This document shows, piece after piece, positions 58,236 to 63,301 of a stretch of DNA of 64,000 nt (position 1 is the stretch's first letter; every line of letters begins with the position of its first letter). The stretch comes from Erwinia mallotivora. GTDB lineage: Bacteria > Pseudomonadota > Gammaproteobacteria > Enterobacterales > Enterobacteriaceae. The notes beneath the pieces were generated by a model. That model saw only the letters and a list, made by a program, of their open reading frames with translations. It made no database searches and was not told the DNA's origin. Where the stretch lies: positions 62,001-126,000 of the forward strand of contig NZ_JFHN01000074.1 in the NCBI RefSeq assembly GCF_000590885.1. Reading direction: 5' to 3'. The position numbers and the translations under genes were made by a program.

Positions 58236-58325
58236 TTCTCCCTGCTGTTTCCAGCGTCAATCCTTACGATTTTGTGCTGATATTTTGCTTTTCAGCCATG
58301 CAATTGCTAATTTTTGAGACGATGA

Positions 58326-58376
58326 TTGCATAACCATGCCGTCAACGATAAGATTCGCAGCATCAATTGCTATTCA
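58326..58376 (+). promoter_or_regulatory. Candidate artP promoter with an ARG-box-like site
   Basis: TTGCAT (58326-58331), 17 bp, TAAGAT (58349-58354) is a modest promoter. TCAATTGCTATTCA (58363-58376) matches the ArgR half-site core TGAAT-N4-ATTCA at 9 of 10 positions and would cover the transcription start, as a repressor site should. The second box expected 21 bp upstream is degenerate. The artP ATG at 58387 has no visible Shine-Dalgarno. Confidence 0.5.
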
Positions 58377-58386
58377 CCTTTTGCGC

Positions 58387-59115
58387 ATGAGTATTCAACT
58401 TAACGCTGTCAACTGCTTTTATGGTGCCCATCAGGCGCTGTTCGATATCCAGCTGGCGTGTCCCGAAGGGGAGACGCTGGTTCTGCTTGGCCCAAGCGGT
58501 GCCGGAAAAAGTTCACTGCTGCGCGTGCTTAACCTGCTGGAGATGCCGCGTTCCGGCACGCTGGCGATTGCCGGTCACCATTTTGATTTTAGTAAGCCCC
58601 CCTCTGACGCCACCATCCGTGAGCTGCGGCAGAATGTTGGCATGGTCTTTCAGCAATATCATCTCTGGCCACATCTGACCGTGAAGCAAAACCTGATCGA
58701 AGCACCCTGTCGCGTGCTTGGATTAGACAAAGAACAGGCCCATGCAAGGGCTGACAAACTGCTCGATCGCCTGCGCCTGAGCAAATTTGCCGATCGCTTC
58801 CCGCTTCACCTTTCTGGTGGTCAGCAACAGCGCGTCGCCATCGCCAGGGCGCTGATGATGGAACCGGCGGTCCTGCTGTTTGATGAACCGACCGCCGCGC
58901 TGGACCCCGAGATCACCGCTCAAATCGTTGCAATTATTCAGGAGCTTGCCCACACGCGCATTACCCAGGTTATTGTCACCCACGAGGTCGAAGTCGCGCG
59001 TAAAACCGCCAGTCGCGTGGTGTATATGGAAAACGGGTATATCGTCGAACAGGGTGATGCCAGCTGCTTTACACAGCCGCAAACCGATGCGTTTGCCCAT
59101 TATCTGTCACATTGA
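58387..59115 (+). CDS. artP: Arginine ABC transporter ATP-binding protein ArtP
   Basis: A 242-residue ABC ATPase, the E. coli length, powering arginine uptake. Start ATG at 58387 ([20 protein letters not shown]) is chosen by homology; a longer frame starts at 58336. Walker [18 protein letters not shown], signature [17 protein letters not shown], Walker [15 protein letters not shown]-loop [10 protein letters not shown]. First gene of artP-artI-artQ-artM. Confidence 0.97.
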
Positions 59116-59129
59116 TGCAGGACATCATG

Positions 59130-59861
59130 ATGAAAAAAGTTGTATTAGCCGTACTGCTGGCCGGTTTAAGCCTGAGCGCAACTGCTGCACAGACCCTTCG
59201 TTTTGCCACCGAAGCCTCCTACCCTCCGTTTGAATTTGTTGACGCAAACAACAAGATTCAGGGCTTTGATGTGGATCTGGCTAACGCGCTGTGCCGTGAA
59301 ATGAATGCAACCTGCACTTTCACCAACCAGGCCTTTGACAGCCTGATCCCCAGCCTGAAATTTCGTCGCTTTGATGCGGTAATGGCCGGTATGGACATCA
59401 CCCCTGAGCGGGAAAAGCAGGTGCTGTTCAGCAAAGCCTATTACGACAACTCCGCCCTGTTTATCGCGCAGAAAGGTAAAATTACCTCAACAGACGCGCT
59501 GAAAGGCAAAAGCGTGGGCGTGCAAAACGGCACCACTCACCAGAAATACCTGACCGAGAAAATGACCGGCATTAAAACCGTGCCCTACGACAGCTATCAG
59601 AATGCCATCCTCGATCTGAAAAATGGCCGTATTGATGCGGTATTTGGTGACACCGCCGTGGTGAATGAGTGGCTGAAACAGAACGCAAATCTGGCAGCGG
59701 TAGGCGAAAAAGTGACAGATAAAGCCTATTTCGGCACCGGCCTGGGCATTGCCGTTCGCCAGGGCAACAGCGAGCTGCAAAACCAGTTCAACACCGCGCT
59801 GGATAAAGTCAAAGCCGATGGCACCTGGAAGAAAATCTATGACAAATGGTTCCAGCAGTAA
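59130..59861 (+). CDS. artI: Periplasmic arginine-binding protein ArtI
   Basis: A 243-residue protein, as E. coli ArtI, with a signal peptide MKKVVLAVLLAGLSLSATAA. It belongs to the family 3 solute-binding proteins: RFATEASYPPFEFVDANN at the start of the mature part, VMAGMDITPEREKQVLFSK, VGVQNGTTHQKYLTEK, IDAVFGDTAVVNEWLKQN and AYFGTGLGIAVRQ line the ligand cleft and match E. coli closely. A GCAGGA lies before the tandem ATGATG (59127/59130). It follows artP by 14 bp. Confidence 0.95.
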   Translation: MKKVVLAVLLAGLSLSATAAQTLRFATEASYPPFEFVDANNKIQGFDVDLANALCREMNATCTFTNQAFDSLIPSLKFRRFDAVMAGMDITPEREKQVLFSKAYYDNSALFIAQKGKITSTDALKGKSVGVQNGTTHQKYLTEKMTGIKTVPYDSYQNAILDLKNGRIDAVFGDTAVVNEWLKQNANLAAVGEKVTDKAYFGTGLGIAVRQGNSELQNQFNTALDKVKADGTWKKIYDKWFQQ

Positions 59862-59868
59862 TCTCTGA

Positions 59869-60585
59869 ATGAACGAACTTTATCCTCTTGCAAGCGCCGC
59901 CGGGATGACCGTCGGCCTTGCCATTTCTGCCCTTACGGTCGGACTGGTGCTGGCGATGATTTTTGCTGCCTGGGAATCGGCGCGCTGGCGACCGCTGGCC
60001 TGGATAGCCACCGGCCTGGTAACTCTGTTTCGTGGTCTGCCGGAAATTCTGGTGGTGCTGTTTGTCTATTTTGGTGCCTCGCAGCTGCTGCTGACGCTCT
60101 CAGATGGTTTCACTATCAATCTGGCCGTGGTGAAAATTCCGGTACAGCTGGCTATTCAGAACTTTGACGTCAGTCCGTTTCTCTGCGGCGTGATTGCCCT
60201 GTCAATTCTCTACGCTTCCTACGCCTCACAGACGCTGCGTGGCGCACTGAAAGCGGTGCCTGGTGGTCAGTGGGAGTCAGGCCAGGCGCTGGGCATGAAG
60301 AAGAGCACGATTTTCTTTCGCCTGATCATGCCGCAAATGTGGCGTCATGCCTTACCGGGACTGGGCAACCAGTGGCTGGTGCTGCTGAAAGATACGGCAC
60401 TGGTCTCTCTGATTAGCGTCAATGACATTATGCTTCAGACTAAAAGCATTGCCACGCGCACTCAGGAACCCTTCACCTGGTACATGATTGCCGCCGCCAT
60501 CTATTTGCTGATTACGCTGCTGAGCCAGCAAATTCTGCAACGGATTGATGCCAGAGCCACACGATTTGAGCGGGGAAGCGACTGA
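59869..60585 (+). CDS. artQ: Arginine ABC transporter permease ArtQ
   Basis: A 238-residue inner-membrane permease, the E. coli length, with about five helices and the ATPase-contact EAA loop [20 protein letters not shown]. It begins 8 nt after artI without a clear Shine-Dalgarno, suggesting coupled translation. Its TGA overlaps the artM ATG (TGATG at 60583-60587). Confidence 0.96.
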
Positions 60586-61253
60586 TGCTGGCTTATTTAC
60601 CCGATCTGTTAAAAGGGCTTCACACCAGCCTGACGCTGACCGCCGCCGCGCTGGTTCTGGCCTTGCTGTTATCACTGCTGCTCACGGTGATCCTCTCCCT
60701 GAAGCTGCCGGTGCTCAGCCTGCTGGTGCGCGGTTATATCACGCTGTTCACCGGCACACCGCTGCTGGTGCAGATCTTTTTAATTTATTATGGCCCCGGG
60801 CAGTTTCCCGCCATTCAGTCAGTGCCGTGGCTGTGGAATCTGCTTTCCCAGCCCTGGCTGTGCGCACTGCTGGCGCTGTCACTGAACAGCGCGGCCTATA
60901 CCACCCTGCTTTTTCATGGTGCGGTACGGGCAATTCCGTCCGGGCAGTGGCAATCCTGCGCAGCACTGGGGATGAACCGCAAAGACACGCTGCGCATCCT
61001 GCTTCCCTACGCCCTGAGACGCGCGCTCTCCTCCTGGTCCAATGAGGTAGTGTTGGTGTTCAAAGGCACCTCGCTGGCCTACACCATTACCCTGATGGAG
61101 GTGATGGGCAACAGTCAGCTGCTGTATGGCAGAACCTATGATGTCACGGTGTTTGCCGCCGCAGGGCTGATATATCTCTGTGTTAACGGCCTGCTGACGC
61201 TGTTGATGCGTCTGATTGAGCACCGCGCTCTGGCGTTCGAACGTCGTCACTGA
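60585..61253 (+). CDS. artM: Arginine ABC transporter permease ArtM
   Basis: A 222-residue partner of ArtQ (E. coli 222) with about five helices and the EAA loop AVRAIPSGQWQSCAALGMNR. The start overlaps the artQ stop by one base. ArtQM forms the channel used with ArtP and the binding proteins. Confidence 0.96.
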   Translation: MLAYLPDLLKGLHTSLTLTAAALVLALLLSLLLTVILSLKLPVLSLLVRGYITLFTGTPLLVQIFLIYYGPGQFPAIQSVPWLWNLLSQPWLCALLALSLNSAAYTTLLFHGAVRAIPSGQWQSCAALGMNRKDTLRILLPYALRRALSSWSNEVVLVFKGTSLAYTITLMEVMGNSQLLYGRTYDVTVFAAAGLIYLCVNGLLTLLMRLIEHRALAFERRH

Positions 61254-61258
61254 TCGAC

Positions 61259-61283
61259 ACCGGTAGTGCCTGTCATTACCGGT
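61259..61283 (+). terminator. Hairpin after artM
   Basis: ACCGGTA (61259-61265) pairs with TACCGGT (61277-61283) around 11 nt. The tail ATCTTTC is weak. It lies 5 nt past the stop; may be an attenuator between artM and the artJ-like gene. Confidence 0.45.
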
Positions 61284-61383
61284 ATCTTTCGGAAACAGCC
61301 CTTCTTTGGCGGTTAATCAACGGATAGCTCACTGCTGCCGACCGGCATAATAGCCTGTCTGTTAACCGCAAGGACGGTAAGTA

Positions 61384-62121
61384 ATGCACAAGCTTTTCCT
61401 GGCCCTGTTACTCGCCATTCTCAGTATGAGCGCGCTGGCGAACGGTTCATTACGCTTTGCCACCACCGCCGCCAATCCCCCCTTCGAATACCTCAACAAC
61501 GATAACCAGATGGTGGGATTTGATATAGATGTGGCAAAAGGATTGTGTAAGCGTATGCAGGTCGAATGTATTTTCACCAACACCGCTTTTGATCTGCTGC
61601 TGCCATCCCTCAGATTTCGTCGCTACGATGCGGTGATTGCCGGTATGGATATTACCGATGAACGCCTGAAACAGGTGGACTTTACCCGCCCCTACCTGGC
61701 TAACTCCGGCACCATTATCGCGATGAAAAACCGCTACAGCGATCTTACCCAACTAAAAGGTAAACGTGTGGGTGTGGGAGGGGACACCACGCAGCAGGCC
61801 TATCTGCAATCGGCGTGGCCGGAAATTATTCCGGTGGTGTATGACGACTACCAGAATGCGCTACTGGATATGCGCAGTAACAGACTGGATGCCATTTTTG
61901 GTGACACCCCTGCGGTACAGCAAATGCTGAAAGCCAATTCGCAGCTTGCCTCGGTGGGTAAGCCAGTTACCGACGAACGTTATTTTGGCTCGGGGCTGGG
62001 CATTGCGGTCCGCAAAGGCGACGCTCAGCTACTGGAACAGCTGAACAGCGCATTGCAGAGCCTGAAAGATGACGGCACGCTGCGCCAGCTCACCCAGCAC
62101 TGGCTGGGTGTGGCGAACTGA
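61384..62121 (+). CDS. artJ: ArtJ-like periplasmic amino-acid-binding protein
   Basis: A 245-residue family 3 solute-binding protein at the artJ position, with signal peptide MHKLFLALLLAILSMSALAN. It is clearly related to ArtI/ArtJ (DAVIAGMDITDERLKQVDFT, VYDDYQNALLDMRSNRLDA) but much more divergent than artPIQM are from their E. coli counterparts. The cleft loop seen as NGTTHQK in ArtI reads GGDTTQQA here, YPPFE reads NPPFE, and FGDTAVVNEW reads FGDTPAVQQM. Ligand preference may have shifted, though it should still dock with ArtQMP. No ARG box is seen upstream. AAGGA precedes the ATG. The stop is 3 bp from the convergent rlmC stop. Confidence 0.85.
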   Translation: MHKLFLALLLAILSMSALANGSLRFATTAANPPFEYLNNDNQMVGFDIDVAKGLCKRMQVECIFTNTAFDLLLPSLRFRRYDAVIAGMDITDERLKQVDFTRPYLANSGTIIAMKNRYSDLTQLKGKRVGVGGDTTQQAYLQSAWPEIIPVVYDDYQNALLDMRSNRLDAIFGDTPAVQQMLKANSQLASVGKPVTDERYFGSGLGIAVRKGDAQLLEQLNSALQSLKDDGTLRQLTQHWLGVAN

Positions 62122-62124
62122 CCC

Positions 62125-63252
62125 TCAGCGACGTACCAACAGGGTCAGCACTTCGCTGTGCGCCGTGTGCGGAAACATATCAAACAGCTGCACTTTTTCC
62201 AGCCGGTAATCATTCAGCAAGGCAATATCACAGGCCAGACTTTGCGCGTTGCAGCTGGAATAGAGGATCCACTGTGGCGACATCGTGCTCAGCCAGCGGC
62301 AAAGCTCCGCGCCAATTCCACGACGCGGCGGATTCACCAGCACCAGCTCGGGAGCGGCCTGTTCAGAGGTGGCAAACGCGGTGGAATCCAGCGCGGCAAA
62401 ACGCATCTGCTCCCTGCCCATCGCCGCCGCTGAACGCTGCGCACAGGCAATGGCTTCAGCGCTGATTTCAATACCGGTCAGGCGCACTTCCTGACTGGCG
62501 CAATGCAGGCCAAAACCCCCGACACCGCAGAAGAGATCCCACATACTGCTGACATCCAGCGCCCTCACCCACTGGCGGGCAGTGGCATAAAGTGAGGCCG
62601 CAACCTGTGGATTGGTTTGAAAAAAACTTCGTGGACGTATCCACAGCGGCACATCGTTCAACTGTTCGGCCAGTGCCTGATTCTCCGTCAGCGGAATCTC
62701 CTCTTCGCCTTCAAGAATGGCCATATGGACCGGCTGGATATTGGCGGAAACCACAGTGATACGGGGCAGCTGCTGTTGCAGACCCGGCAGCGCACGGGTC
62801 AACTGCGCCAGTTTTTCTTTTGAGCGCAAAACGAAACGCAGCATCAGCTCACCGCTGTGGCTGCTTTCAGTCAGCAGAATAAACTTCAGCTCGCCGCGTC
62901 TGCGCGCCACGTTATACGGCGTCAGTCCGGCCCTGGCGATAAACGGCTTAAGTTGGGCAAACACGTGGGCAAAACTTTCCGGATAGAGTGGGCAGTCACA
63001 GAGATCGACCGGTTGCCCGTCACGGTGCATCAGGCCGAGAACAGGCCGTTCAACGCTACCGCTGACCACCATCTTTGCTTTATAGCGGAACTGCTGTTGT
63101 GCAGAGGTCACCGGTGGCAGCCACTGCGCAGCCGGATGCCCGGCCAGCAGCTGGCGCAACGTATGCTGCTTCTCATCAAGCTGCCGGGGATAAGGCACAG
63201 CCAGCCACTGGCAGGAGCGACAGCGGTCAGTTTCGTAAAGGGAGCAATGCAT
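62125..63252 (-). CDS. rlmC: 23S rRNA m5U747 methyltransferase RlmC (RumB)
   Basis: A 375-residue enzyme, the E. coli length, methylating U747 of 23S rRNA. Start ATG at 63252 ([20 protein letters not shown]). Iron-sulfur ligands Cys3, Cys11, Cys14 and Cys87 are present; SAM motif [27 protein letters not shown]; catalytic Cys334 in YSSCNAQ. The extended frame to 63294 is not supported. No gap or terminator separates it from artJ. Confidence 0.97.
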
Positions 63253-63301
63253 GTGGAGGTCCGTGGTTGGTACAGCGGGCCAGGATTGTACCATTGTGTC
63301 T

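Follow-up and report, generated by a model that had tools for sequence, protein, structure and literature searches.

The window, by which we mean the whole 64,000-nucleotide stretch of DNA analysed, encodes an ArtJ whose side-chain pocket differs from that of 30 canonical ArtJ and 49 ArtI proteins, and an alignment of artJ orthologues, a check of the kind that the first-pass annotation had proposed, revealed that this change is clade-wide. The clade protein is a well-known protein in a form particular to one lineage and, as far as its sequence indicates, probably prefers another ligand or binds arginine weakly. The account that we favour, on a modest balance of probability, is that of an ArtJ orthologue freed of strict arginine duty, which would still bind amino acids with a shifted side-chain preference.

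Gene order and identity of the window ArtJ

The order artPIQM-artJ-rlmC in the window is the same as in E. coli MG1655, and the diverged gene takes the position of artJ, 3' of artPIQM and adjoining rlmC. The features of the locus are the following:

58387..59115, + strand: artP, arginine importer ATPase (NCBIfam ArtP equivalog, 477 bits, cut-off 369; the query ORF started at 58384, one codon 5' of 58387)
59127..59861, + strand: artI, canonical arginine/ornithine binding protein with Glu11, Tyr14 and Gln117 (PRK15007 subfamily, 460 bits, cut-off 358; under the narrow ArtI equivalog cut-off, 467 vs 522)
59869..60585, + strand: artQ, permease (NCBIfam ArtQ, 438 bits, cut-off 277)
60585..61253, + strand: artM, permease (NCBIfam ArtM, 393 bits, cut-off 248)
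61254..61383, + strand: artM-artJ gap of 130 bp, without ARG boxes (two-box score 12.0, inside the shuffle range)
61294..61328, + strand: conserved block AACAGCCCTTC..TTAATCA.CGGATAGC, kept in most of the 15 upstream regions of the clade
61346..61351, + strand: candidate -10 element CATAAT (similar hexamers at the same place of the alignment)
61384..62121, + strand: diverged artJ, 245 aa, type II substrate-binding fold (ORF, profile searches, fold model, E. coli synteny)
61474..61476, + strand: codon of Asn31, the equivalent of LAO Tyr14 (pocket alignment)
61777..61785, + strand: codons of Gly132-Gly133-Asp134, the equivalents of 117-119, Glu-Asn-Gly in canonical ArtJ (alignment)
62125..63294, - strand: rlmC, right-hand neighbour (tblastn synteny in the loci of many relatives; annotated as rlmC in E. 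coli)

The window ArtJ begins with a segment that, judged by eye, is signal-like. It is 52% identical to its E. coli counterpart, while the window ArtI reaches 77%, in agreement with the first-pass description of ArtI as conserved. Profile searches gave the window ArtJ 307.7 bits with the NCBIfam ArtJ equivalog (cut-off 510), a threshold that the canonical relatives G005 (491.7) and G022 (441.9) miss too and that E. coli ArtJ passes (535). With the arginine-binding subfamily PRK15007 (cut-off 358) it scored 285.3 bits; the clade members G016 (278), G025 (290) and G021 (239) also fall below this value, and the canonical G005 (395), G022 (363) and E. coli ArtJ (377) exceed it. The score with the lysine/arginine/ornithine binders of TIGR01096 was 233.8 bits, under the cut-off of 256.35.

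An AlphaFold2 model built from a ten-sequence alignment has a mean pLDDT of 90.4, and its nearest solved structure is the arginine-specific STM4351 of Salmonella (PDB 2y7i, TM 0.87 by query), which is also the best sequence match (46% identity over the aligned part) and which, unlike the window protein, keeps Tyr14 and Glu-Asn-Gly at 117-119. The fold, together with Arg77, Thr121 and Asp161, places the window ArtJ among the type II amino-acid substrate-binding proteins. Besides the Art proteins, the genome encodes three ArgT/HisJ-like binders, as well as GlnH and cystine binders that score over their profile cut-offs.

Binding pocket

Pocket positions are numbered as in LAO, with the contacts taken from Table 3 of PMC5740067, and were compared in 14 intact clade ArtJ, 49 ArtI and 30 canonical ArtJ (18 from the genus, 11 from other genera and that of E. 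coli). The groups that hold the amino acid backbone are largely maintained in the clade, with Arg77 and Thr121 in 14/14, Asp72 in 13/14 and Asp161 in 12/14 (Glu in the other two); Phe52 is kept in all 14. The side-chain end of the pocket is different. Glu117, found in 30/30 canonical ArtJ, is absent from all 14 clade proteins, and Tyr14, found in 30/30 canonical ArtJ and 49/49 ArtI, remains in only two of them (G001 and G014), the other 12 having Asn14. Canonical ArtJ carry Ser/Tyr/Glu at positions 11/14/117 and ArtI Glu/Tyr/Gln, and every one of these 30 and 49 proteins has an acid at 11 or 117; none of the 14 clade proteins does. Outside the genus, Tyr14 was present at 25 of 25 loci, with Glu117 at 21 and Gln117 at 4, after two of 27 loci had been dropped because their residues fitted neither ArtJ nor ArtI, apparently having been read on the wrong strand. 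Rows for L003 and L005, minus-strand loci of the window's own genome that were translated from the plus strand, were left aside as well. By equivalence with LAO Leu117 and OccJ Gln159, Glu117 of canonical ArtJ would contact the guanidinium group.

The window protein has Thr11, Asn14, Gly117, Gly118 and Asp119, and thus lacks the Tyr14 and Glu117 of the arginine pocket. The changes around position 117 are E117G, N118G, G119D, H122Q and K124A, with Thr120, Thr121 and Gln123 conserved. All three altered cleft segments quoted by the first-pass annotation are indeed present: NPPFE for YPPFE corresponds to the change of Tyr14 to Asn, and FGDTPAVQQM for FGDTAVVNEW retains Asp161, while the pairing of GGDTTQQA with NGTTHQK was one residue out of register, the proper counterpart being ENGTTHQK. 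Four pocket types can be distinguished in the clade: Gly-x-Glu/Asp (8 members), Arg-Asn (3), Ala-Asp-Ala with Tyr14 and Glu161 (2) and Val-Asn-Gly (1). Asn14 with Gly117-x-Glu/Asp119 is common to the group of eight that includes the window, in which seven relatives have Glu119 in place of the window's Asp119. The acid at 119 may represent an acid moved by two residues that takes over from Glu117, in which case arginine binding could persist.

Sites that shifted between clade and canonical ArtJ are not significantly enriched in the contact shell (2/9 vs 12/89, p 0.61; 3/9 vs 21/89, p 0.68). Within two residues of a contact there is a weak excess (11/27 vs 13/71, p 0.034) that loses significance once the cut-off is tightened (p 0.055 and 0.20). 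Across the 14 clade proteins 58 mature columns are invariant, two cysteines among them.

Compared with known systems, the window ArtJ shares with the arginine-specific, ArgR-repressed ArtJ of E. coli its locus, its length and Arg77, Thr121, Asp72 and Asp161, and differs from it in having neither Glu117 nor Tyr14 nor ARG boxes. With LAO (ArgT) and HisJ it has in common the fold, Arg77, Thr121 and Asp161, and with LAO also Gln122, whereas LAO Asp11, Tyr14 and Ser72 correspond to Thr, Asn and Asp in the window. Alanine-scan structures of LAO exist in the PDB; our literature search showed no paper giving their affinities, and a search on artJ in Erwinia and on ArtI/ArtJ specificity returned no title or abstract on this divergence.

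Distribution and selection

All 37 genomes of the genus were searched, and a diverged ArtJ was found in 15, one of the copies being frameshifted. In the tree of artP, artI, artQ and artM these 15 genomes and G009, a sixteenth clade member without artJ, are monophyletic (support 100), and the same neighbouring-gene tree unites them with a sister clade as nearest kin (support 99). In G009 only 26 bases, including the rlmC stop, separate the artM stop from the rlmC match, and in G035, the sister of G016, artJ is frameshifted and decayed. Outside the clade, G006 and G031 have no artJ beside artM. Pairwise identity has a median of 0.587 for ArtJ and 0.905 for ArtI in the 14 clade genomes with an intact artJ, and of 0.798 and 0.877 in the 18 canonical members of the genus.

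The codon-model omega of artJ was 0.175 in 13 clade members vs 0.071 in 13 canonical members of the genus, that of artI in the same two sets was 0.052 and 0.062, and artP, artQ and artM ranged from 0.042 to 0.060. In a branch model of our own making, which compared 13 sequences of the clade with 18 of the background and took fixed relative branch lengths from the species tree, artJ omega about doubled, from 0.085 in the background to 0.175 in the clade. Allowing a separate clade omega, one extra parameter, raised lnL by 36.5 for artJ and by 0.9 for artI. The stem omega was elevated in both genes (artJ 0.40, artI 0.32); since it rises in artI too, this estimate is unreliable and was not used. 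Selection on the clade artJ is weakened yet purifying, and the gene is less constrained than its canonical relatives.

Upstream region and ArgR control

The genome has argR, whose promoter carries strong ARG boxes that score 22.0 with a spacer of 2 bp (shuffle p 0.002), and therefore an ArgR system exists here. In E. coli, artJ is ArgR-repressed and arginine is bound with a Kd of 0.4 micromolar, according to a paper on the artPIQM system of that species (PMC6640053). The 130 bp upstream of the window artJ contain none of TGAAT, ATTCA, TGCAT and ATGCA, as the first-pass annotation had seen for the first two, and the two-box score lies below the median of the shuffles (13.0; 99th percentile 16.0). 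Two-box scores upstream of artJ were 19.5-24.0 in other genera and E. coli (12/12) and 20.5-22.0 in four further members of the genus (4/4), and each of these 16 box-bearing regions gave a shuffle p of 0.010, the floor of that test. The diverged clade scored 11.0-14.5 (15/15). The sister clade, in which ArtJ is canonical, scored 12.0-15.0 (11/11 scored; four more regions, with gaps of about 31 bp, were left out of scoring), its top values of 15.0 in G003 and G004 having shuffle p of 0.040 and 0.089. ARG-box loss is thus spread wider than the clade-wide cleft change of the protein. The suggestion that the missing box is a sign of new function is rejected, as all 11 scorable sister-clade relatives are without a strong box and keep the canonical pocket. 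Because the box-poor sister and diverged clades are nearest kin, the simplest assumption is a single loss of the boxes that preceded the change of the protein. Such a loss is unsurprising in itself, since artJ is classed as a taxon-specific ArgR target in a regulon survey (PMC5343134).

Upstream of artP (window about 58300-58345) the ARG score was 15.5-18.0 in the diverged clade and 14.5 in G009, 19.0-20.5 in the sister clade, 18.5-20.5 in the rest of the genus and as low as 14.5 in other genera.

When the upstream regions of the clade are aligned, most have in common AACAGCCCTTC..GGTTAATCA.CGGATAGC as well as an element resembling CATAAT and, ahead of the start codon, GCAAGG. The core of the block, TTTAATCA.C.GATA, also occurs in four sister-clade regions (G012, G013, G019 and G020), likewise without ARG boxes. 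A scan of the region upstream of artJ for consensus promoters and terminators found no site; the conservation itself suggests a live promoter of another kind, with the block as a candidate promoter or regulator region. In a genome-wide look for a regulon of this block, TTAATCANCGGATA had 11 matches with at most one mismatch, two of them exact, and the reversed control had 0.

Origin and specificity of the clade ArtJ

A changed side-chain preference comes ahead among the explanations considered, with a plain weakening of selection as its close rival; the readings overlap, and their odds do not sum to one. Under plain weakening, ArtJ would still bind arginine, only less tightly, with Asp119 standing in for Glu117; being redundant with ArtI it would be heading to loss, with no new ligand. 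We hold this to be quite possible though less probable. The doubled omega agrees with it, as do the changes spread over the whole of ArtJ, the contact-shell concentration not being significant, and the decay or absence of artJ in G035 and G009 within the clade and in G006 and G031 outside it. It has to face an omega that is still far under 1, the invariant columns with their two cysteines, an upstream region that is partly conserved, and the fact that the replacement residues are themselves shared, Asn14 in 12/14 and Gln122 in 10/14.

The first-pass annotation had gone further and proposed a neofunctionalised binding protein feeding the same permease. A changed specificity is plausible given the altered side-chain pocket under purifying selection, but weakened constraint and partial gene loss would be a simple account of much of the divergence. 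True neofunctionalisation, in which the Art permease stays in use and ArtJ takes one specific new ligand, such as a polar or neutral amino acid from plants, would explain why the backbone anchors are retained while the side-chain pocket has changed, and why Asn14 and Gly117-x-Glu/Asp119 are common to the window's group of eight. With four pocket types in the clade there is no one new ligand that would suit them all, and artJ loss is continuing; we find this reading rather unlikely. Another basic amino acid, as had been suggested for the ligand, is not favoured, since positions 11 and 117, one of which is acidic in the basic-amino-acid binders of our comparison, are both neutral here, although Asp119 could substitute. 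The proposal of an opine fares worst. The structural matches include NocT and OccJ, which share the fold, but most of their published signature residues are absent: according to PMC5740067 the octopine signature is Glu-Tyr-Trp-Ser-Arg-Gln-Asn-Thr-Ala-Asn at LAO positions 11, 14, 52, 72, 77, 117, 92, 121, 122 and 161, where the residues of the window protein are Thr, Asn, Phe, Asp, Arg, Gly, Gly, Thr, Gln and Asp, so that only Arg and Thr match (2/10). Opine binding is rejected on this ground as extremely unlikely.

That the native artJ was displaced from its locus by a foreign copy also seems very improbable to us. Protein trees do put the clade outside other ArtJ and not beside the sister clade, but this is the placement that a long branch would give, and forcing the clade beside the sister clade costs no likelihood (44 sequences; -8326.6 with AU p 0.55 when forced, vs -8328.8 with AU p 0.45 in a fast search left free). 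The shared upstream core of the four sister-clade regions argues in the same direction, and so does a best outside-genus match of only 59% identity among the matches listed from a sample of 295 genomes of the family. Foreign replacement is unneeded, and vertical descent with acceleration would be the simplest account of the clade artJ.

Returning to the changed side-chain preference, we propose that the window artJ is a vertically inherited gene of its locus, whose ArgR operator would have been lost once, by parsimony on the compared sequences, in the ancestor shared with the sister clade. Fast protein change would then have followed on the branch to the diverged clade, in which the carboxylate and amino-end groups were kept and the side-chain acid and tyrosine replaced, changes that are observed and whose roles are taken from LAO. 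From its locus, fold and purifying selection, the product is likely still a secreted amino-acid binder delivering to ArtQMP; it would no longer be a high-affinity arginine-only binder, and its shifted preference may differ between clade subgroups. Arginine uptake would be covered by ArtI and the ArgT/HisJ-like proteins, and artJ would therefore be free to drift and be lost. A bolder, speculative extension, which we put forward with the balance against it, is that the clade forms a natural series in which one binder, released from ArgR, moved through several pocket types, each with an amino acid of its own, some of these non-basic; the Art importer would in this way have gained substrates through its second binding protein alone.

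The proposed order of operator loss, looser specificity and loss in some species would make this an ordered evolutionary case, with the conserved paralogue ArtI and the permease as internal controls. Ligands measured across the pocket types would show importers gaining substrates through a duplicate binding protein. For annotation, genes named ArtJ here may not bind arginine.

Some further observations concern the locus and the genome. An inverted repeat, ACCGGTA ... TACCGGT (61259-61283), lies 3' of the artM stop, and the scan did not class it as a T-tailed terminator; on visual inspection, several relatives (G025, G029 and G021) have repeats at the corresponding position that resemble it and could form hairpins. 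At the loci L093, L094 and L097 (G027, G023 and G008) and L080 (G030), the distance from artM to the start of artJ is only about 31 bp, and artJ is probably co-read with artPIQM. The neighbour of argR is presumably malate dehydrogenase, as it reads like one. Besides the true argR, L125 (1198-1731, - strand) encodes a second ArgR-family protein of 177 aa (PF01316, 47.7 bits, cut-off 27), flanked by ORFs that we take, from how they read, to be like aspartate carbamoyltransferase and a YfcC/ArcD-like transporter.
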